From the NCBI RefSeq assembly GCF_026151205.1, contig NC_087079.1, forward strand, positions 9,786,635 to 9,850,634: 64,000 bases of DNA, given 5' to 3'. This DNA is from Bolinopsis microptera. Taxonomy: Eukaryota; Ctenophora; Tentaculata; Lobata; Bolinopsidae. Each line of letters begins with the position of its first letter. The stretch's first letter is position 1. Of this stretch, positions 1 to 60,797 are shown one piece after another. The notes beneath the pieces are model-generated. The model ran no database searches. It was not told where the DNA came from and saw only the letters and a list, made by a program, of their open reading frames with translations. Position numbers and translations under genes: made by a program.

Positions 1-3000
1 GATCCCTGATGTCGAAGAGATTGAATTATACGAAACCTATACCGTTATCTGCAATAATAACTTCCAAATGGGTATAAACAATCATTTCTTCTAGCACTTT
101 TTCAAAAATAATTTTCTTATTTATCTATCTTATCTTTTATTTCTGTTATGTCCTAAGTTCTGTTTCTGTCCTAAGTGTACCCAAATCATTGATTCATCAA
201 AGACTAAACAATTTAATCTGTTAGGTTTATGTCTTTGGAATCCTTTATAACTTTGCCACGTGTATACAGTTTAATTTGTATGTCAAAGTGCAGCAGAAGG
301 AACATAAGAATTATAACTAAAGTCTGTAGATTGTATACAAAGAATCTATGATTTATCATTTAGCTCGGTGTAGAGCGGCAGTATAAGATAACATACCAAT
401 TTCTCAGAGAGGGGAGAAGATAAGGTAATTGGAATAGATCCAGTGTACACCTGTTCACCAAAAGATGATGGGTCTGGAGCCTTGTCTCCAGAAACTCTCC
501 CTACATGTGTTAATTATCCATGTTCGTCAATACGCTTTTTTGATTAACTAATTAAAAATTAATTTACTAATTTGTTAATCAACTGATTGACTAATTAACT
601 TTTTGCCTCAATTTGGCTCAAATCGTTTTACAATAATATCCCCAGGGAGTCAGAGTCAACTAGATTTTATAAAACAGATAACTGCTGACGTTAACAACAA
701 ATATGCCGTGCAAAGCGATCAAATCGGTTGTTGGGAGGGATCAAACGGTGATTTTAACGGAGCGAGTGGCTTGACTCAATGTAATCCTCGAAGCCCTTCA
801 ATGTATATAGGTGAGAAATTATAAAAGATAAAAAGTTCGTCGCCTTTTGGATCCTCTTTACAAATGAAATCTATAATATATAGTAGGGTAGCGTTTGAAT
901 CACCACCTGTCTTTATATTTGACACTATATCGCGGATCTACAAATAATTAATTATAAGTTTATGTCATTACTAGTTACTACCCGCTACATTACAGATATT
1001 GGTTGCAACGACAACAACAAAGAACGCACAATGGTTGGCTATAACTCGCTTATGGTATTTGGTGATAAAGTGGACGCCACTGATCCATTGTGGGGAGAAG
1101 ATATCATTGAAGATGAGGTCGAAAAAATGAAAATCTACATGGAATGTATTCCAGGTAAATCTATATGGAATGTATTCCAGGTAAATCTATATGGAATGTA
1201 TTTCAGGTAAATCTATATTTAACTTTCTCTTACGAAGCTGACGTTGTTTAAACTTCAAGAACATGCATAACTTCAAACTTGAGAAGAATGTATCTTATTC
1301 TTAATGATCACAACTTTAAATGCTAAATATAAATCTCTATAGTAATGAAAATGTTTTAACACCTCAGTACTGTGTCTTACTACAGCTCAACCTGCTCAGT
1401 CTGACTATTTGGGAATTTAAACTCTTGATATAAATCTCTATTACAGCTGAAGAAATAGCGACGGTATGTCAGAAGGTTGATGAGCAACCTACCAAGTCAA
1501 ATACGAAACTTTACGTCAAAGTGTACAGGTGAATATTCACACTATTGATTGAAAGCCCCTCGTAAGGGGATTGTCTCTCATGGACTAATTAGTGTTTTAC
1601 ATCACAATAAGTTAAAAATAAAGACCCCAATGGGCACTCCTGAAAACATAACTACTAGAAAATATATCAAAACTAAATAGAAAAACTGTGGTCAAATGTG
1701 ATAAAATGGCAACAAACTGCGAATTATAATGGAAAATAAATTTTGAATTCGTTATTTAATGGCACGCAGCAGATTATAGAAAATGTAAAAAAAGTCAAGC
1801 AAAAATGTTGTTCACATATCACATTTACAAATGGGTTTGAGTTTCAAATTAATTTCACTGTACGACAAACAGATTATTTAAAAAATTTACAGATTATAAA
1901 CTAAAACACAGCATTGATTTGGCTTGGTATAAAAGTGATAAAAAACAAATTTAAAAACTCAATATTCTGGACGTTGGATTTAGCCCCGATTAGCAGCAAA
2001 AAAAGATTAAGAATTTCTGTTTCTAGTGGACCTACGGAGGCCGCTGATTTCGTGGATGAGAAATTTACTCGTGGACCACTCATTTACATTATCATCCACC
2101 TTCTGCAGCTTCAGTATTTTTCTTTTGCATTGTGATTTGAACGCCTTCACTCTTCAGCAATTGGCATGACACTGAATTGAATGCTTCGTCTAGCGATGCG
2201 TCTACAAATAGTAGTGGGCCGTTGAAGAATATTGAATTTCTATGTGTGGCAGTATTGCAGTCATTGAACCATTCATAGTTAGCTTCAGTGATTACTTCTG
2301 AGTTTCGAGACGGCACATTTTTGCGCATAGTTTTTGCGACGAGAGGAGGTGATTAGGGAAATAGAATATTGTATTCATGAAAATGAGTGAATTAGATAAT
2401 ACTAAGATTATGCTGTGTATAGTTAGGATCGAGTAGTTGCTGAGGAGGTGTCCCATCTTTGTGCACCTAATTAGTTTATCCGATAGTTCATCCAAAAGTT
2501 TATTGTTTTCCCCGGAACTCCTTCTCTGTTCACCTATATTATTTATCAATTTGTTACGGTCGTAAGGATTAAAAAAGTTTGACTGTGAATTAACAGTAAT
2601 AATGTTCAGTAGTTCCCCCGATATACACTCAAAACAAGACCATCTTCATCCTGGAGTTTTTGATATGTTTTCAACGTCATTTTTGCTAAGGTAGCTACAC
2701 TTGTAGTGTTTAATTTGCCTGCACATGTTGCATATTAGATTCTGGCGAGATTTTGGAATTTGTACTGAGCATTTATCACATTTGACCGTCTTACTAGATG
2801 TTAGCACCAGGTTTGGTGTCAACTTGTAAAGTATTAATAGATAGTAACGTGACGTGAGCTAAGTGATTTTGATATGGAATAAATAATAAGATCAACAATT
2901 AATTAACGTGACGTAGTGAGTTCCTGTATAATTTAGTATATACTTATAGTAAATAGTTATTACGTGACCTGCTAACGTGACCTAGCTAATACTTCGCATA

Positions 3001-6000
3001 CTATAAAAAAATGGGGTGGTAAGACTATTTTAATCATAGATCTTTATTAGGGTTTCAAATTTTACTCATCTGTATATCTTTTTTGCAATCGCAGTTCTAT
3101 GATATTCATCATAAACTGGTTCGTTTGCAGTGTTGATATACCAGACTCAGAACCGAGCCGAGAGAAGCGGCTGATGAACATCAAGCAAAGCGAAGATATA
3201 CACTACAGGTTGCGGTGTGATGATGGCTACAATTTCGAGTAAGTATCTGGTTCAAATATCCAATTTCAGATTTAAGGCTGGCCTTACGTTTTGAAATGCT
3301 ATGGTTCACATTTTAATTTCAATTACAGGTATAGATTGTCCACACCATAGCTTTATAACACGAATGCTTTGTTTCACTTCTAAATGAAAAGCTGTAATAG
3401 TAAAACTAAAAAGCCAATATCGAATTTGGCAGTTATTCGAGTACATATCGAGCTGTTTACAATCACAATACGATTTGTAATTAAACGAATCTTCCCGAGA
3501 AGCTGTTCCGGCCTAGCCGATGGCCGATGCTCCTACATGGTTTTCCGGATCATCACTAGATGAACGGGACACTATGGTAGTCACTTTCCGGACGTAGCCT
3601 CTCTGTCCAAACGGAGAGGTAAAGTGAGCGCCCTACACATACACTCACACACTCACGCACGCAATCATAAATTGAAACGACACAGTACATGCATACAAGG
3701 CTCTAATTGGGTATATAAGACGTTTGACAGGTTATTTGAGAGGCTACAGATACTGGTGATTGGGATCATGTGAAACTCTCTAATCTCTATACCAGATTTT
3801 TCTATACCAGGCATTTATCGTTCCCCCGTGAGGTCCGGTATATAGAGGTTTTACTGTATTTTAGTATTTATTTTGAATCAAATTTATAACTTTATAATGT
3901 TTTGACTTTTTACCGACAGTAAAGAATTAAGGGGGAGATCGATGTGCTTCACAGTAACTAACTGTTTCAATATTCAGGGACGGTATTGACGAAGAAACAG
4001 TTTATGGTTATTGCTCAGCAGTAGGAGCTGAAGCCGGGGCCAACGAATTCTTCGCGTACACTAAAGATGCACCTGATACCGCCCTCAACTGCTATGGTAA
4101 GCGACTGGCAGAAAGGTTCAAGCGAAATTATAATATTATATTCAATATAAAATTGTAATTAGTTAGGTTGTAAACCTGCTAAATGTTGATAACATCGATA
4201 AAAAACCCGCAGCTAAGTGTCCAGCAAACCCTAAAAATGCAGACCTATTTTCTGTGGGGTCACCAGTCTTCAGTGTGCTGTACATGCCATCTTTAAGAAA
4301 AGGAGAAAATTTCATCGTCCCTAAAAATACGGTCAGTATCATTTGTTGGTTACATGTTGGTTGTCGCTTTATAATGTTTTACTTCCTGACGTCAAAAACT
4401 GACCAAATTAATCCATTCAGTAGTATAAACTGATAGAGCCAAATGAAATCATTCATTGTTAAAAAGGTTTTGTTGCCTTGAATAGCATTATTGGATGATA
4501 ATGATTGATAGGACCATCAATTTCATCGTCGTTGGAGTAAATGCAGAAAATGATGCCGATGAATCCACTGAATTGGAACTTATGTCCTCCATAAGGATTT
4601 ATATTCGCCATCAGATCTCAATTCTCAGACTACATTTTATAATTGCAGGTTAAGTGTGCAGATGGGCACTCATTAGTAGAGGACGCTCCAGAGAACTTTG
4701 AGATAAGCTGTTTAGGAGCTGACACGACTGCAAATCCAGATTCTGGACTGTTATCTTGCACTGATTGTCCTGTTTGTTATGGTGGGTAATTTTAAATCGT
4801 CGTTAACGCCTAGGTCACATTAACTCCTAGGTCACATTAACTCCTAGGTCACATTAACGCCTAGGTCACATTAACTCCTAGGTCACATTAACTTCTAGGT
4901 CACATAAACTCCTAGGTCACATTAACTCCTAGGTCACATTAACTCCTAGGTCACATTAACGCCTAGGTCATATTAACTCCTAGGTCACATTAACTCCTAG
5001 GTCACATTAACTCCTAGGTCACATTAACTCCTAGGTCACATTAACGCCTAGGTCACATTAACTCCTAGGTCACATTAACGCCTAGGTCACATTAACGCCT
5101 AGGTCACTAGGTCCTATCAACATTCAACAGTGCTGATTGCTTATATTTGTTGTAGCCCTCAAATATCTTTGTAGCTTCAAAGCTGTATAGGGTAAATGCT
5201 CACCAAAGACTAATGAACGAATTTTTACAGCAATGTGTATAGAAAATCCCGAAAGTGTTGATAAGTTTGTTGCCGATACTGACTCAGTATTCAAAACACT
5301 GACAATGCCTGCTCTTACTAAAGGAAAATCTCACACTTTAACCAGCGCCAATGTAAGTGGAATTCTTCCATCATGTTTGGGGTGAACTCCTATTAAACGT
5401 ATAATTAAAAGTATGAACTAATCGTAGGAATTGTAGAAATCAAACACAGATACCCTAATTCAGAGTCCAAATCAAATGGACAATCCATTTTCTCTGTTTA
5501 GGTGATATGCGAAGACAACTATTCTTTAGCTCCAGATGCCCCGACCAGCTTTGACATTACCTGTAATGCTGTGGGATTACTGTCTTGTGAAACCTGCCCT
5601 AAATGTTATGGTGAGTCGTGCTAGGAAACAATTATGCTTGATTTGTTTAAGTTATTCGACACTATCATTATCTTAGCTTTAGCTGACCTCTCTCCAGTCT
5701 CCATAACGAAGTGGATATCCGAGATATTTTGTATCCTAGAGAATTGTATAGTACATTCACTATACCGTAAACGATTACTATAGTCTATTATCTTTCAGTG
5801 AAGTGTCCAGCAAACCCGGATAATGCCAACATGTTCGTGGCAGGAGAGGATCCTGTCTTTAAACAGCTGGAAATAGAAGAGATGATAAAAGGGCAACAAG
5901 TTACCTTTAAAGCTGAAAAGGTGACAAAAAGTTCTATGCGCGTGGGGCTGAAAATTTCAGTAGTATTTCGAGCCGACATCTTAATATCCACCTATAAATT

Positions 6001-9000
6001 TTAAGTTTTAGAACCCCTGCAGTCTTATTCACCTCATTCAGGTGATATGTGAAGATGGACACGATTTAGAGGAGGGTGCCCTAGAAAAATACACTGTGAC
6101 TTGTAGCGACCCTGGGGCGGCTGATCCGAATATGGGGCTACTTAGCTGCGGAGATGCATGTCCTAAGTGCTACCGTTAGTATGATTTCTTTATCGCATAA
6201 TCTGTTCTGTGACTCACACAGCGTTTTCCTCAGCCGTACATCTTGCTATTTTGAAGTGGTGTGAGTTGAGTTATAAAATAATTCATTATGATTAACAAAC
6301 TCTCACAATTATATAGTCCCACCTTTTGTTTTGCAGCTATGTGTCCTGCGAACCCCGACAGTACTAAGTTTGCGGACGGCGCTGACGGTGTGTTCAAACA
6401 ACTCACCATGGAGGCGTTCAAAAAAGGGGCATCACACGCTCTCACCAAAGAAAATGTAAGAATTTAGCACTAACGATGGACCATATACGTTTTACCGAAA
6501 CAATTAACTCGAATTTTACTTTTCCCGATCTTAAACACTCTTATCAAACGAAATAATGATCAGGTAGTCTGCGAGGAGAATATGGGGGTAGCAGATGATG
6601 CACCAGATTCTTACGAGATCGATTGTGGGAAGTCAAATGAAGACGGGTTATTTGAATGTACTACGTGTCCTAAATGTGTAGGTTAGTTATATAAAACATA
6701 GGTAAATATGAATAAATTGAACATTAAAGTTTAGAAGAAATAATTGAGGAATAACTTCATCGAATATTATCAAAACTGAAAATTTCAGCTCAGTGCATAG
6801 CCCCTCACACTGAAGATACGTTGGTTATTCCGGAAGAAAATGGAGTAAAGTTGGTTCCAATGGATGGTAACATAAATCTAAACCAAGAACTCGTTGGTAT
6901 GTGAAAAGCTTTTTACAAATGTCTAAAACTTTTTGGTTTCTATAGATATCGATCATCGATGTTAACTGAACCTTTCATAGACTCTTAGGGAAAGGTCCAA
7001 GGAGAGTATAGACTGATCAGTATAGAGACAGTATCATTAACCCCCTTCACTTTCAGTCGCCGTGGGTGACATAGAGTGCAAGGATAACTATGCCATGTCA
7101 GCTGATGCTCCGGAAACTTTCTCTTTCGTGTGTAAAGAGAATGGCATGTTCAGTTGCGCTGACGGTGCAAATGGATGTCCTCGATGCCTAGGTTAATAAA
7201 AGGACTGAAATATGAAGCAATTGATGTCCGGCATTTTGACTAGATTATCATTAGTGGGTACAGTGTACACATATTATTAGAGGTCTAGTATACCGGGTTT
7301 ACAATATAATTTAAAACCGTCCCACACAATTACATTCAAAACATTTCTCTAATCATAATTTCTATAAGGCACCTGTAACTGGCCAGAAGCTGTTGTCATT
7401 GGAGGTGATGAAGGATATGACTTCCAGTATGTTGATGAGACGAAGAATAAAGGTGACGATAGGGCTGAAAAAGCTATTCCTGGAGTTAATCACGTTGAGG
7501 TAAGTCACGTGATATGTTTTAGTATTTCTTATCTCGGACTCTTGACTTTAAAGAAAATTGTTCAGTATTCATTGTGTCTTTAAAATTGAGTCTGGTTTAC
7601 TCTTTTCAGGCATACTGTACAAATACATCTCTGGTTATTTTGGGACCAAGATTTTTAAGCTGTATTACCAATAACACGATGGTTTTCGATCTCAAAGGTT
7701 ACCTTGATGACGCTGTACCAGTCTGTCAACTAGGTAAATTTTTTTAATAAATTTTAATAAATTTTAAAAAATTTGTAACTAGGTAAATTAATTGTTTATG
7801 TTTGATCAGGAATAATGACGTAGAGTGAAAAAAACACAATAGTCAATACGTCTTACTCTCAAGTAATTTCAGCGAACACACACTTGCCAATTGGACTGAA
7901 TTGAACTCTCAAATTCTCTTGATTAAAGCTTTGAAAAGTTTCTGACATTATAATGTAACCACATTCCGCAGAACCAGTGTGTGAAGCACCGGCTACAGAG
8001 GGAGGCTCGTTCCAAATGACAGGGAATATAGCAGTCGGGGAGGTATACACCTTCACTTGCAATGAAGGTACTGATGATTACAGACGGGTTTTATAGACCT
8101 ATTTGTCTAGTACAAATTAAATTATAAATCATTTATATTAGTATTGATGTTTTGGATAAACGGTGTGTTGCCGGAGTTTTTAAAGAACTTCTCGGATTTA
8201 TGAACTTCATACTAAGTTTTTAAATATTTGTATTTTAACCAGGGTATGTGTTCGATCTAGACACGATAAAAGAGCACGGAGATGAGATCACAATAACTTG
8301 TGAAAAACCAGCTGAAAATGACACCCTCGTTAACTCTAAACTGCCAGCACAGTACTGTTACAGTAAGTACCCGGACAGCAATGTACTGTTACAGTAAGTA
8401 CCCGGGCAGTAATGTCCTGTTACATTAAGTACCCGGACAGTAATGTACTGTTACAGTAAGTACCCGGACAGCAATGTACTGTTACAGTAAGTACCCGGGC
8501 AGTAATGTACTGTTACAGTAAGTACCCGGGCAGTAATGTCCTGTTACATTAAGTACCCGGACAGTAATGTACTGTTACAGTAAGTACCCGGACAGCAATG
8601 TACTGTTACAGTAAGTACCCGGGCAGTAATGTCCTGTTACATTAAGTACCCGGACAGTAATGTACTGTTACAGTAAGTACCCGGACAGCAATGTACTGTT
8701 ACAGTAAGTACCCGGACAGCAATGTACTGTTACAGTAAGTACCCGGGCAGTAATGTCCTGTTACATTAAGTACCCGGACAGTAATGTACTGTTACAGTAA
8801 GTACCCGGACAGCAATGTACTGTTACAGTAAGTACCCGGGCAGTAATGTACTGTTACAGTAAGTACCCAGACAGCAATGTACTGTTACAGTAAGTACCCG
8901 GACAGCAATTTAATGTTACAGTAAGTACCCGGACAGCAATGTACTGTTACAGTAAGTACCCGGGCAGTAATGTACTGTTACAGTAAGTACCCAGACAGCA

Positions 9001-11457
9001 ATGTACTGTTACAGTAAGTACCCGGACAGCAATTTAATGTTACAGTAAGTACCCGGACAGCAATGTAATGTTACAGTAAGTACCCGGACAGTAATTTAAT
9101 GTTACAGTAAGTACCCGGACAGCAATGTAATGTTACAGTAAGTACCCGGGCAGCAATGTACTGTTACAGTAAGTACCCGGACAGCACAGCACTGTTACAG
9201 TAAGTACCCGGACAGCAATGTACTGTTACAGTAAGTACCCGGACAGCAATGTACTGTTACAGTAAGTACCCGGACAGCAATGTACTGTTACAGTAAGTAC
9301 CCGGGCAGTAATGTACTGTTACAGTAAGCAGCTTGAGAATGTGAACAATCGTTCGAGTGAGTCTCGTGAAATGTGAACAAAATATGGCTCAAAACATGTT
9401 CGTCCATCATAGTTCATACTCATACCGGATAGACTTGATAAAATAAACTGTTTTCTCATTACTAAGACGGTCAAACAGTACTACCACTTCATATCGAGCA
9501 GTATCGTTTTAGTTTTCTCGTCAAAATTTGATTAATCCAATCAATTTATGAATGGATCCATCGGATCAAATCTGTTTTTATTCTGTGATGAATCCATCGA
9601 ACGTAAAACTTCTCCGTTGTAGTTCCAACGGCTCCATTGTGTTGGAATCTGATCACCAGCAATTTGAATGTCTACTCGTTTCTATTGAAGTTCCAGTTAA
9701 ACTGCACCTCTTTTAGCTCCGCTAAATATTAGGCACCCTTAAAAAACCTAAAATTGTAATTAGTATTACATTTCTTGGGTGAACACTGAACAATACATAT
9801 TGTTGGTGCAAAACACAGCTCCTTAGCCATTTACACCACCACCGTAGTGAGTTGACTTGCTACATATTCTGACGTCGGAGCACCAATACGGTTGTTTAGT
9901 GCTTACCACATCAAGTCATTCACTAAGTAAATTATGGGAAGCCTGCTGGCTCTTTATTGTCATGTGAACTACTGCAGTCAATAAAATTCAAATTCACGAA
10001 ATTTATGTAACTTACGGGTTCCTGATTTGATAAATTATTAAATTTGTGTAACTCACAGTTGGCAATCTATCTCCATGGTTAACTGGAAAACAAAGAAATT
10101 TGATAATAAGCACTGGCTTCTTAAAGGCTGGTTCGCATGGTTACAGTGTCCCACCGTCCTTTGGAGCATCGTTTTACATAGAATGACGTGGGCAAACCTT
10201 TTATTTTATCAATTCGCAGGTTGAAGGTTCCAATATATTAGAAATGTTAGATTTTTCGTCATGACTTCATGAGGTCATAGTTTGAACCGTACAAGTTAGG
10301 AAACAGCGAAAATGCTTAAAAGTGAATTAAAATGACAGATTTGTTAGAAAATCTGCTAAACGGTAATGTTGACCGTTACATTTTTCCACTAAGTGTCCGC
10401 TTCATTGCTAAGAAACGTGCTGCAAAACAGTACTTACAGAAAGACTGAATTTTCAAAATCTTTCTAATGAGCATGACAGCTTGACAAGTTTCGTAATTTC
10501 TGAGATTTGGCTTGAATCCAGAACTACTGATTCATGTCAGCCGACCACGGTTAGCACTTAGCTTTAAATGGAAGAAAAAATTGTAAGTGTTTAAAATTAA
10601 GGGGAATCTCTGCATTTCGTTAATAACAGTTTAAGAAGCTTTCAGAAGTCTTATAAAACTTTTAACAGGTGGTTGTATGGAGATAAAGGGTTTTAATGGT
10701 ACAATAACCCCCATTGCTACGAGATCAGGAGGTGCTCCGTACAGCGAGGGACAGGAAATTACTTTCGCCTGTAACGAGGGCTATGAACTGGTAAGGGTGA
10801 TCCATTATACTATTATACCTTTACTTACAACTACAAGTTTCATATATTTATTACTTCAATAATGTAGGCTCTATGATTATTGGTTTAATCTAGGCTATGT
10901 ATGAAGCTCTACCTATTATATCTATACCATAGACTTATTAGACTAGGACACAGTCCAACCTGATCCAGAGGATGTAGCGTCTGCTGCTAAGTATAGTAAC
11001 GTCTACTACAGACTACACAGACTACACAGACTACACAGACTACACAGACTACACAGACTACACAGACTACACAGACTACACAGACTACACAGACTACACA
11101 GACTACACAGACTACACAGACTACACAGACTACACAGACTACACAGACTACACAGACTACACAATACACATGCTTCCAAATTGAAAAATTGATAGTTTCT
11201 GGTCCGCAAATTGGTGTTTTTAATATGGTTAATCGAAGAAACTGGCATTTAAAAGTATCTTCAACACAAATAAATTACAGTCAGATTCAAGTAAAGGCGT
11301 ACAGACGTGCGATAAGGGGAAGATTGGTGACGGACTAGTGGTTCCAACTTGTATTATAAAACCGGAACCAACGGAAGAATCAAAAGGAGCAGCAGACCGT
11401 TTTACTGCATCTTCTTTCCTGATAATCACTCTACTCAGCCTACTTCTCTGGTCTTAA
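1..11457 (+). CDS. Large multi-exon CCP-like / Cys-rich repeat surface protein, 5' end outside window
   Basis: At least 23 exons: 1-71, ~408-508, ~654-810, 996-1154, 1447-1528, 3131-3238, 3978-4096, 4213-4331, 4649-4781, 5231-5352, 5502-5610, 5799-5920, 6042-6174, 6337-6455, 6564-6681, 6789-6896, 7057-7191, 7369-7499, 7610-7733, 7972-8067, 8243-8362, 10669-10790, 11281-11457 (TAA). All junctions from exon 654-810 onward have GT-AG ends and keep one reading frame; the ends of the second and third exons are uncertain. The product has CCP/sushi-like halves (CDDGYNF, FACNEGYEL) and, in the middle, repeated modules opening with CPANP and closing with CPKCY. The last exon ends in a hydrophobic stretch (SSFLIITLLSLLLWS) after small residues, as in a GPI-anchor signal; a short transmembrane tail is the alternative. 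So it is probably an extracellular, membrane-tethered protein. AATAAA lies at 11937-11942. I do not recognise the whole protein; the middle module matches no family I know. Confidence 0.82.
1138..1215 (+). repeat. Three tandem copies of a ~26-bp unit spanning an exon end and splice donor
   Basis: The unit ATGGAATGTATTCCAG followed by GTAAATCTAT occurs three times in a row (the third with TTTCAG). The first copy is the end of exon 996-1154 and its donor; the next two put equivalent donors in the intron. Confidence 0.85.
3690..3860. repeat. Dispersed repeat copy in an intron
   Basis: Part of the intron 3239-3977. Segments such as GACAGGTTATTTGAGAGGCT, ACCAG(A/G)TTTTT and a closing TAGAGGTTTTACTGTATT recur in diverged form and the same order at about 44860-45000. 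This suggests an old interspersed element of unknown class. Just upstream, 3480-3650 holds a more GC-rich stretch that may belong to the same or another repeat. Confidence 0.45.
4213..7191 (+). repeat. Tandem exon-pair repeat encoding a Cys-rich module
   Basis: Within the large surface-protein gene, exon pairs 4213-4331/4649-4781, 5231-5352/5502-5610, 5799-5920/6042-6174 and 6337-6455/6564-6681 encode the same ~80-residue module; 6789-6896/7057-7191 is a diverged fifth copy. The first exon of each full pair starts in phase 1 and ends in phase 0, the second starts in phase 0 and ends in phase 1, so a pair can duplicate without breaking the frame. Shared residues: a CPANP or C.ENP opening, VFK.L, KG, then CE(D/E)..., a DAP..(Y/F)-I-C core and a final C..CPKC. 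Confidence 0.85.
4803..5107. repeat. 17-bp intronic minisatellite, about 18 copies
   Basis: Tandem units of the form CTCCTAGGTCACATTAA or CGCCTAGGTCACATTAA, with few changes, in the intron 4782-5230 of the surface-protein gene. Each unit holds the palindrome CCTAGG. Confidence 0.95.
8352..9328 (+). repeat. 31-bp minisatellite made of exon end plus splice donor, 31 full copies plus a partial
   Basis: The exon 8243-8362 ends ...TACTGTTACA before GTAAGTACCCGG. This segment, GTACTGTTACAGTAAGTACC plus 11 more bases, is repeated every 31 bp to 9328. About 28 of 32 copies keep ACA/GTAAG; four variants (near 8425, 8549, 8640 and 8764) read ACATTAAG and have lost the donor GT. The first copy is the inferred working donor; the next exon begins at 10669. 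Confidence 0.95.
9329..10668. other. Remainder of a long intron, no gene seen
   Basis: AT-rich intron sequence between the 31-bp minisatellite and the exon at 10669. I found no exon consistent in phase and no recognisable transposon ends. Confidence 0.5.
11014..11162. repeat. 9-bp tandem repeat (ACTACACAG)n, about 16 copies
   Basis: Near-perfect array in the last intron of the surface-protein gene. It is open in several frames because nine is a multiple of three; the resulting Cys/Val or Cys/Ser/Leu repeats are artefacts. Confidence 0.95.
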
Positions 11458-37791: not shown

Positions 37792-37939
37792 CGATTTTGT
37801 TAGTTTGGAGGAGCATCACGTCTCTCGACAGTCAAAGTACAAATACGAAATGAAACTATCACATTTGCCTAGTTTCATTTCATATTTGTACTTTGACTGT
37901 CGAGAGCCGTGATGCTCGGACTCCAAACTAACAAAATCG
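37792..37939. repeat. 148-bp long hairpin, MITE-like
   Basis: Arms of ~66 bases pair almost perfectly (left begins CGATTTTGTTAGTTTGGAG, right ends CTCCAAACTAACAAAATCG) around a loop of ~13 bases near 37858-37870. It touches the left end of the foldback element. It could be a small MITE; if transcribed it would give a long hairpin RNA. Confidence 0.85.
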
Positions 37940-40543
37940 GGCACTATCCGTCGCGGAGTCGAGTCCGCGGCGGAGCCGCCGGACTTCGAGCGGACTCCGA
38001 GCGGACTCCGGCGGAGCCGCCGGACTCCGAGCGGACTCCGGCGGTGCTCCGCCAAAATGTATTTACAGTGGACTCGAGTACATTTTGGCGGACTCCGAGC
38101 GGAGCCGAGCAGACTCCGAGCGGACTTTAAAGTCCGCCGCGGACTCCGAGCGGCTCCGCGGCGGCTCGGCGGAGTGTCCGCCGCGGACTAAGCCACTAGG
38201 CGGACTCCGGTCCGCCGCGGACTCCGGCGGAGTGCTTGGCGGACTCCGCCGGACCTCTCCGCCAGACTTGAATCCGGCGGAGTCCGGCGGAGCTTGGCGG
38301 AGTCCGCCAGCTCGGCGGACTCCGCTCGGAGTCCGCCGGACTCCAACAGAGTCCACTGACTTCCGACCTCCGTCTTCCGACCCTCGGCTAAATTTGTCAC
38401 GTGACATACAACATAGCATTTTGCAATATTGTGGTCAGATGAAAAGGTCGCTAGTGATAAACCTTAACCATTACCCTCACAATGTCAATAGTGTACAACT
38501 CTAGTCCTAACTTTGACCCTATAATGTATAAACGTTGACCCTAACCCTCCACCAAACCGTCCGCAGCGAAATATCAATGTCATTGACTGGTCACGTGACC
38601 AAAACAATTTTTGTCATATTATCTCATATGGGGAAGCGTTTTTAGCAAGCAAAAATACGTCGACCATCACAGGACGACGCCAGCCAGCACTCTCTACGCT
38701 CTTCGAGCTCCGATCGTCCTGTGACGAAGTAAGGACGAAGCCTGAGTTCCTCAGGTAACATCGACCACCGATTGAAAATTCAAAGATTTTTTGACATAAA
38801 GGTCAAATGTAAAACTAAAATCTTGATGCTGATTGATTGACGACGTCAATTTTTGAGCACAGCGCGAGCGCATGCGGAAAAGGACCGCGTAGCTAGTCAA
38901 GATGTTGATAAATAGTTGGCTTGTGGCGCGATGTGTTGCTCTAACTATAGCCCTCTCGCTTGCAGTAGCGCGCGACCGCCGGAAATGACTTGTGGAACAA
39001 GCGTGCCCGCAGCGGCGCGAAAGCACCTGGTTAGCTAAATGAACGCGATGTGCCTTGCATTGTAGGATGAAATCCTACTAGCTGACGCCACTCGCAGCTG
39101 TGATGTTCGCTATACGTCAGCGATCGAAATTTATACGCGTATCACCCGTTAAGATGTGCCACCCGACGCGCCACGCAATTTTTCTCGTTGCTCGTCGCAC
39201 GTCGACGCCCTCATTAAATTTTTGGAGAAAATCGCTCGCCAAAATTTGTTGGACCAGGACGATGTCCTAGCCTGGCAGCTCATTGCGCGGTGCGTCGCAA
39301 CGAGCTTCGTTGACGTGCGACGAGCAACGAAAAAAATTGTGTGGCGCGTCGAGTGGCACATCTTAACGGGGGATACGCGTACAAATTTCGATCGCTGACG
39401 TACAGCGAGCAGCACAGCTGCGAATGGCGTCAGCTAGTATGATTTCATCCTACAAGGCACATCGCGTTTACCTAGCTAACCAGGTCATTTCCGCCTCCGG
39501 CGGTCGCGCGCTACTGCAAGCGAGAGGGCTATAGTTAGAGCAACACATCGCGCCACAAGCCAAATATTTATCAACATCTTGACTAGCTACGCGGTCCTTT
39601 TCTGCAATATGCGCTCGCGCTGTGCTCAAAAATTGACGTCGTCAATCAATCAACATCAAGATTTTAGTTTTACATTTGACCTTTATGTCAAAAAATCTTT
39701 GAATTTTCAATCGGTGGTCGATGTTACCTGAGGAACTCAGGCTTCGTCCTTACTTCGTCACAGGACGATCGGAGCTCGAAGAGCGTAGAGAGTGCTGGCT
39801 GGCGTCGTCCTGTGATGGTCGACGTATTTTTGCTTGCTAAAAACGCTTCCCCATATGAGATAATATGACAAAAATTGTTTTGGTCACGTGACCAGTCAAT
39901 GACATTGATATTTCGCTGCGGACGGTTTGGTGGAGGGTTAGGGTCAACGTTTATACATTATAGGGTCAAAGTTAGGACTAGAGTTGTACACTATTGACAT
40001 TGTGAGGGTAATGGTTAAGGTTTATCACTAGCGACCTTTTCATCTGACCACAATATTGCAAAATGCTATGTTGTATGTCACGTGACAAATTTAGCCGAGG
40101 GTTGGAAGACGGAGGTCGGAAGTCAGTGGACTCTGTTGGAGTCCGGCGGACTCCGAGCGGAGTCCGCCGAGCTGGCGGACTCCGCCAAGCTCCGCCGGAC
40201 TCCGCCGGATTCAAGTCTGGCGGAGAGGTCCGGCGGAGTCCGCCGAGCACTCCGCCGGAGTCCGCGGCGGACCGGAGTCCGCCTAGTGGCTTAGTCCGCG
40301 GCGGACACTCCGCCGAGCCGCCGCGGAGCCGCTCGGAGTCCGCGGCGGACTTTAAAGTCCGCTCGGAGTCCGCTCGGCTCCGCTCGGAGTCCGCCAAAAT
40401 GTACTCGAGTCCACTGTAAATACATTTTGGCGGAGCACCGCCGGAGTCCGCTCGGAGTCCGGCGGCTCCGCCGGAGTCCGCTCGGAGTCCGCCCGGAGTC
40501 CGGCGGCTCTGCCGCGGACTCGACTCCGCGACGGATAGTGCCC
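37939..40543. mobile_element. 2.6-kb foldback transposon with ~1.25-kb inverted arms
   Basis: The left arm 37939-39207 and right arm 39308-40543 are near-identical inverted copies (about one difference per hundred codons in mirrored open frames) around a ~100-bp centre. Termini are GGGCACTATCCG / CGGATAGTGCCC. AAAATC flanks both ends (37933-37938 and 40544-40549), consistent with a 6-bp target duplication. Outer arm parts are GC-rich subrepeats of CGGAGTCCG; inner parts are unique. Open frames here (38063-38504, 39978-40419 and others) are repeat artefacts; no transposase was seen, so it is non-autonomous. Confidence 0.9.
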
Positions 40544-41110
40544 AAAATCGTTTCTAACTCACGCTCGGCCTTATGCAAGATCTGTTCAATTATTCTACCA
40601 GAAAATTATTCCTTGTGCAGTTGGCTTAAAACATTATCAGGAGTCCATCTGCATCACAATCAAAGTTATGCAATTTTACCAGTGTCCAAACAAGTTTCTG
40701 TGACCTTCATTACTTGTTGTTGTGATTGTAAGTAACATTGAAGGTCAAGTGTACACTTTGACTTTCGATTGTCATAGCGGCATGGTAATAACTAGCAAGA
40801 ACCCGTGTAACCCTAAAATGGTGTCAAGAATCAAGAGACTAAAATAATTATTACCTATTTTATTCGTGTTTTTGACACCACTTGGAGTACCAAATTTTGG
40901 GCTCTAAAACTCCTATTTCTTGGCCAATTTTTTATTTTTTCATGCTGATTTGGAGGCATTAGAGCATTTGTCCCAGTCAAAAAAGTTAAAATTGATGCCG
41001 TGGTTTCAGTAAAATGGCACGAATAAATATATATCGTCTTGCTTTGTATATAGTAAGATGGTCTGATGAGCCATGGTTTGGTGACACAGGGGACCTAAAG
41101 TGCAAAGAAA

Positions 41111-59514: not shown

Positions 59515-59547
59515 TTAACCGAATAACAAAATTGTTAGAGCAAGGAT

Positions 59548-60797
59548 TACTAGCCGATAAACACTGAGGTGAAAGGATTGCTAGCCGATAAACACTGAGG
59601 TGAAAGGATTGCTAGCCGATAAACACTGAGGTGAAAGGATTAGTAGCCGATAAACACTGAGGTGAAAGGATTGCTAGCCAATAAACACTGAGGCGAAAGG
59701 ATTGCTAGCCAATAAACACTGAGGCGAAAGGTTTGCTAGCCCACAAACACTGAGGTGAAAGGATTGCTAGCTCATAAAAACTGAGGTGAAAGGATTGCTA
59801 GCCGATAAACACTGAAGTGAAAGGATTGCTAGCCAATAAACACTGAGGTGAAAGGATTGCTAGCCCATAAACACTGAGGTGAAAGGATTGCTAGCCAATA
59901 AACACTGAGGCGAAAGGATTGCTAGCCAATAAACACTGAGGCGAAAGGATTGCTAGCCCACAAACACTGAGGTGAAAGGATTGCTAGCTCATAAAAACTG
60001 AGGTGAAAGGATTGCTAGCCGATAAACACTGAAGTGAAAGGATTGCTAGCCAATAAACACTGAGGTGAAAGGATTGCTAGCTCATAAAAACTGAGGTGAA
60101 AGGATTGCTAGCCGATAAACACTGAGGTGAAAGGATTGCTAGCCGATAAACACTGAGGTGAAAGGATTGCTAGCCCATAAACACTAAGGTGAAAAGATTG
60201 CTAGCCGATAAACACTGAGGTGAAAGGATTGCTAGCCGATAAACACTGAGGTGAAAGGATTGCTACCCGATTAACACTGAGGTGAAAGGATTGATAGCCG
60301 ATAAACACTGAGGTGAAAGGATTGCTAGCCGATAAACACTGAGGTGAAAGGATTGCTAGCCGATAAACACTGAGGTGAAAGGTTTGCTGGCCAATAAACA
60401 CTGAGGTGAAAGGATTGCTAGCAGACACTGGGGTGAAAGGATTGCTAGCCCATAAACACTAAGGTGAAAAGATTGCTAGCCGATAAACACTGAGGTGAAA
60501 GGATTGCTAGCCCATAAACACTAAGGTGAAAAGATTGCTAGCCGATAAACACTGAGGTGAAAGGATTGCTAGCCGATAAACACTGAGGTGAAAGGATTGC
60601 TACCCGATTAACACTGAGGTGAAAGGATTGATAGCCGATAAACACTGAGGTGAAAGGATTGCTAGCCGATAAACACTGAGGTGAAAGGATTGCTAGCCGA
60701 TAAACACTGAGGTGAAAGGTTTGCTGGCCAATAAACACTGAGGTGAAAGGATTGCTAGCAGACACTGGGGTAAAAGGATTGCTAGCCCATAAAATCA
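59548..60797. repeat. 31-bp minisatellite, about 40 copies, with higher-order duplications
   Basis: Units GATTGCTAGCCGATAAACAC plus TGAGGTGAAAG with point variants (CCCATAAAC, CTCATAAAA, TGAGGCG). Blocks of variants recur: about 60165-60440 is repeated at about 60510-60797, and 59690-59800 resembles 59890-60000. Minus-strand open frames here are repeat artefacts. Confidence 0.95.

Follow-up and report, generated by a model that had tools for sequence, protein, structure and literature searches.

The window considered here is a 64-kb stretch (C8:9786635-9850634) of an assembly of 264.65 Mb in 232 contigs, and its first part is occupied by a sushi-domain gene on the plus strand. The modelled part of this gene, at 646-11457, consists of 21 hand-picked exons separated by 20 GT-AG introns and forms a single open frame with 872 codons to the stop. 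The protein so modelled matches the Pfam Sushi profile (PF00084, E 2.8e-10). Upstream of the window, in L042 from 9571, there is a start-like exon that by eye probably encodes a signal peptide, and the hydrophobic tail at the C-terminus looks like a GPI-anchor signal. A search for close paralogues of the gene found none among its 11 matches: four, far below E 1e-3, are the host gene's own exons, and the others are one distant match at E 1.0e-3 and six weaker ones. Between the last two sushi domains lies a GT-AG intron at 8363-10668, of phase 1 as read from the frame, and a 31-bp minisatellite at 8345-9328, also on the plus strand, lies directly across the 5' boundary of this intron.

The exon that ends inside the array (8243-8362, plus strand) is read by eye as supplying the latter half of the penultimate sushi (CCP) domain. 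The open frame joins it to the exons on both sides, and its codon score is 10.6 in its own frame and negative in the other five. The codon model behind that score learned from six open frames of other genes in the window, with the host gene left out, and under it 10.6 is attained in one frame by 215 of 20000 random 120-mers; under a model that adds the rest of the host gene, the exon's score is reached by 39 of 20000. Measured through the first donor the exon is 120 nt long, the other modelled exons spanning 82-177 nt. Together with the preceding exon at 7972-8067 it matches Pfam Sushi (E 9.6e-5, residues 4-37 of 73), which supports the exon weakly because the match falls mostly in the preceding exon, with four residues of 8243-8362 inside it; the remainder of the domain is read by eye from the cysteines of the exon. 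The next exon (10669-10790, plus strand), continuing the frame, starts the last sushi domain, and combined with 11281-11457 it gives a PF00084 match (E 6.1e-5) that clears the curated cut-off. Sushi matches thus exceed that cut-off in domains both before and after the array intron. Given the open frame and the codon use, an exon at this position with its donor lying in the repeat unit, as a sequence-only reading of the window had proposed, is credible.

By TRF the array has a period of 31, 31.7 copies and 92% matches, and its identity at lag 31 is 0.927 against 0.254 +/- 0.014 in 200 shuffles. Phased on the donor, it comprises 31 full copies (8352-9312) and a partial 32nd that consists of the first 16 bases only (9313-9328), with a mean pairwise identity of 0.930 among the full copies. 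The 32-copy, donor-containing minisatellite that had been described from the sequence is therefore present as claimed. The repeat unit does join an exon end to its donor, but the exonic share is 11 bases and not the ten first counted: it corresponds to 8352-8362, the last bases of the exon, and reads GTACTGTTACA, followed by the intronic part GTAAGTACCCGGACAGCAAT. The donor position reads ACAGTAAG in 28 of the 32 copies and ACATTAAG in the other 4; with a slash marking the junction, the donor core is ACA/GTAAG in 28/32 and ACA/TTAAG in 4/32, in keeping with the earlier figure of about 28 intact donors. The full GTAAGT is found in 27 copies, the final (32nd) copy reading GTAAGC. This amounts to 27 occurrences in less than 1 kb; outside the array, the plus strand of the 64-kb window has 18. 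The first of the four dead-donor copies, which unit comparison finds to be identical, occupies 8414-8444, and the remaining three begin at 8538, 8631 and 8755.

The order of unit types along the array (ABCABBCABCAABCABDAEBDAEFEGHIAAB) carries a record of how it may have grown. Identical unit pairs peak at lags of 3 (8/28), 4 (12/27) and 7 (12/24) and are scarce at lags 1, 2, 5, 6 and 8 (0 to 3 each), and on account of these peaks multi-unit blocks were probably copied within the array. The type C units, those with TTAAG, are identical in all four instances and bear three linked changes each (TTAAG and two more). Because these linked changes are common to all four, the four GT-to-TT copies noted in the sequence-only reading, which are indeed present, are most simply explained as one mutation spread by block duplication and not as four losses. 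The interior blocks of the array are homogenised and the 32nd copy is divergent; yet the first copy equals the consensus. Among the 31 full copies, the 32nd being left out, one of nine donor columns is variable compared with nine of 22 other columns (p=0.21). Conservation of the donor columns in these copies thus does not significantly exceed that of the other columns, and the column variation constitutes no evidence for selection keeping the extra donors.

The consequences of using each donor differ sharply. The first donor, the GTAAGT at 8363-8368, is the sole one of the 32 to preserve the frame, which from there runs to codon 873 and gives the full protein. Splicing at donor 2 would shift the frame and bring a stop at codon 793 of 873, and splicing at any copy from the third to the 32nd, including the four with a dead donor, would bring a stop at codon 785 of 873. 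This latter stop is an in-frame TAA that overlaps donor 2. Both the TAA and the expectation of a truncated or frameshifted product from later copies had been put forward at the outset, and both hold: all 31 later copies stop at codon 785 or 793. Under the usual rule, RNAs joined at later copies would be candidates for nonsense-mediated decay because two exon junctions lie downstream of the premature stop. As a splice site the first donor scores 8.0, the median of the gene's 20 donors being 8.85. Masking of donors by RNA structure was considered and rejected, as the predicted accessibility of the array donors (unpaired probability of the 9-base donor 0.006-0.159 in the 32 copies) overlaps that of ordinary donors (0.000-0.254 in the gene's 20 donors). 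Likewise rejected was a recursive splice site with a zero-length exon, for the unit reads ACA/GTAAG and not an acceptor AG followed by GT. A smaller array in the same gene, at 1131-1218, does read CAG/GTAAAT, with copies 26 bp apart; this spacing is below known intron minima and too close for an intron.

Very probably, the array at 8345-9328 is a neutral, length-unstable intronic minisatellite that was seeded on a working 5' splice junction, with splicing taking place at copy 1. A segment of roughly 11-18 exonic bases together with the start of the intron would have been duplicated first, and amplification by block duplication or unequal exchange, leaving repeats at lags of 3, 4 and 7 units, would have come next. 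Growth into the intron would be free for as long as the exon-side copy survived, and the length of the array would be expected to be polymorphic. The exon-side copy would remain the real donor because splicing there gives a 120-nt exon in the right frame. Downstream copies would be intronic look-alikes, mostly unused, and any transcripts that did use them would meet an early stop, still followed by two exon junctions, and would presumably be lost to nonsense-mediated decay. Counted against this explanation are the below-median score of donor 1, the reach of the Pfam match into four residues of the exon, and the precedent of human IFI6, where downstream repeat donors are in use according to PMC4526556, so that the same might possibly occur in the present gene.

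The same precedent favours a different account, which we consider unlikely: that the array tunes expression, the extra donors competing for U1 or for the upstream acceptor and copy number setting the fraction of transcripts that carries the stop and decays. The crowding of GTAAGT into the array and the premature stop that follows from every alternative donor also speak for it. However, the comparable lancelet arrays, known as mirages, are reported to leave regular mRNA splicing undisturbed (PMC3087553, PMC3902484), the variation among donor columns is as given above, and the predicted accessibility of the array donors is ordinary. The suggestion that copy number could affect splicing, U1 binding or isoform choice consequently finds no support in accessibility or in donor conservation; copy number may conceivably regulate the gene, but the idea is so far unsupported.

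Less probable still, and in our judgement very improbable, is that reading into the array yields a useful short isoform, ending at the codon-785 stop and secreted instead of membrane-anchored. Truncation there would cost the protein its final sushi domain together with the hydrophobic tail, which resembles an anchor signal. Also in favour are the position of the intron, which separates the last two sushi domains, and that of the stop, shortly past the cysteine read as closing the penultimate domain. Against this, the two exons downstream would make the RNA a decay candidate unless it were polyadenylated in the intron, and a retained intron would do as well, making the array unnecessary. Finally, an artefact of assembly or annotation, with a wrong copy number or an unreal exon, is the least probable of all: repeat copy number does depend on the assembly, a single assembly and hand-picked exons are involved, and searches with the flanks (7900-8500 and 9340-9940) match this place only and so offer no second copy to compare, but the variant map is structured and the frame and codon use of the exon fit coding sequence.

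The window holds several other arrays. The array at 1131-1218 (plus strand; 26 bp x 3.4 copies) is a second donor-spanning one; it lies across the donor at 1155, with repeat donors at 1181 and 1207 whose use would bring stops at codons 120 and 126. An intronic array at 4803-5107 (plus strand; 17-bp x 17.9) begins 21 bp past the donor at 4782, and the junction is not spanned. The last intron of the sushi gene holds a further array at 11003-11163 (9 bp x 17.8). Elsewhere in the window, a 31-bp x 40.6 array at 59542-60793 carries an AGGTGA motif in most units and has no recognised adjoining exon, and two GC-rich blocks some 1.5 kb apart (37932-38504 and 39978-40553) contain near-identical open frames in opposite orientation and resemble the ends of an inverted-repeat element.

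Beyond the window, a blind sample of 20 evenly spaced 10-kb stretches from contigs C1 and C2 (200 kb) contained two junction-spanning arrays, one at the donor of a C-type-lectin exon and one at the acceptor of a copine exon. The first (L037 7461-7698, minus strand) is a 37-bp x 6.4 array whose second copy is without its GT. Three hand-joined exon pieces match the lectin profile PF00059 (E 9.6e-7, residues 8-137), reaching profile position 106 of 107, and the array-bearing exon contributes residues 111 onwards; by itself this exon has no Pfam match. The second (L022 8230 to L041 280, minus strand) is a 46-bp x 44.2 array whose unit consists of a pyrimidine tract, CAG and then the first 17 bases of the copine exon, the acceptor string CTCACCTCAGGTAGC being found 37 times. 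Taken together with the beginning of the following exon, the copine exon gives a match to Copine (PF07002, E 1.2e-11), and copine-like exons recognised by eye upstream end in frame with it. In all four junction-spanning arrays (8345, 1131, L037 and L022/L041) the reading frame fits the exon-side copy, a point in favour of the main explanation given above. Two of the sampled stretches are each nearly filled by a single satellite-like array, of 29 bp x 308.7 (L021 1060-10000) and of 43 bp x 236.4 (L030 11-9878).

Whether arrays fall on splice junctions more often than chance would have it was approached in two ways. Counting arrays with units of 15-120 bp and at least 2.5 copies in the blind sample, 2 of 27 span a junction, as judged by inspection that was uneven and focused on arrays with high coding-like flanks or donor-like units, against 0.57-1.57 expected (P of at least two, 0.11-0.46). 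Junction density for this comparison came from a crude exon predictor trained partly on the window gene, which recovered 35/41 of that gene's junctions at the lower threshold and 20/41 at the higher. The predictor's own captures in 45 arrays number 4 against 2.62 expected (3 against 1.91), two of the four, L020 and L027, being judged false; it also picked the third donor for 1131-1218 and missed both the array at 8345-9328 and that of the copine gene. In this 200-kb sample, captures of junctions by arrays thus do not show an excess over a rough chance expectation. A preference of minisatellites for donor motifs was rejected likewise: the window and the blind sample of 20 stretches, 264 kb in total, contain 101 arrays with periods of 10-100 bp, of which 7 have a donor-like site with a score of at least 7, the expectation from unit length and sampled rate being 6.98. 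Other score cuts give observed and expected values of 17/15.75, 5/5.26, 5/3.87 and 2/1.56 for the 101 arrays, and a cut of 8.85 gives 3 of 105 against 2.0 by shuffling, with the array at 8345-9328 (score 8.0) uncounted.

A gene-dense, repeat-rich genome may suffice to produce boundary arrays. A tentative proposal, which we regard as somewhat doubtful, is that boundary-spanning minisatellites occur habitually throughout the genome beyond the lancelets as well, whether at donors or at acceptors. Two in 200 kb extrapolates to about 2,600 boundary arrays per 264.65 Mb (Poisson 95% about 320 to 9,500). If the proposal is true, thousands of genes would have duplicate splice sites stacked in arrays of variable length, in which the exon-side copy would be in charge. 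Such arrays would be a source from which new introns could arise, as well as a large natural experiment on spliceosome choice among identical sites. Already the 32 near-identical donors described here and the approximately 44 acceptor-unit copies of the copine intron are natural tests of splice-site choice. Exon definition and position are the usual explanations for how one of several identical splice sites is chosen. Use of the exon-side copy alone would mean that position outweighs both sequence and number; use of later copies would make the array a length-variable brake on its gene.

The array at 8345-9328 is a long instance of something already known, the boundary minisatellite, for which the published cases found come from lancelets and humans; the present genome is a further one. 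An earlier description of the array itself was not recognised in the open-licence PMC literature, in a search not built to exclude one. Mirages were reportedly named in Canestro 2002, the human IFI6 (6-16) minisatellite with multiple splice donors is said to have been described by Turri et al. 1995, and the present genome, for its part, is smaller than lancelet genomes. In PMC3087553 and PMC3902484, mirages are minisatellite-like tandem duplications of exon-intron boundaries in Adh3, globin and troponin C genes, with PGBD5 likened to them. Further marks of a mirage are concerted evolution within the cluster, its edges excepted, and a length that is unstable within or between individuals. The arrays described here share with these accounts tandem units that span a splice junction, at the 5' or the 3' boundary and in the present case by sequence and frame, as well as splice signals that are kept in many but not all copies (here GTAAG lost in the four dead-donor copies). 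Units of 10-72 bp in the Adh3 mirage bracket the present 31 bp (PMC3087553, PMC3902484), whereas the mirage of the BflGb6 globin gene has 6 and 3 copies in its two haplotypes, unlike the 32 copies found here.

The human cases offer a similar mixture of likeness and difference. As in IFI6, a donor-containing unit is repeated at an exon end; unlike IFI6, in which two downstream repeat units serve as donors and give several mRNAs in the account provided by PMC4526556, each later copy here breaks the frame. Human genes in segmental duplications also contain internal tandem repeats at exon-intron boundaries, with minisatellite units of about 30 bp as in the present array; PMC2812944 gives them a mean of four units and, on RNA evidence, connects them with alternative splicing and the formation of new introns. 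Finally, the array resembles the system presented in PMC10809524 in that splice signals are repeated inside one gene, and differs from it in that the intron pre-exists and the unit is ACA/GTAAG and not AG/GT, so that the cut would fall at different points depending on whether a copy acted as acceptor or as donor.
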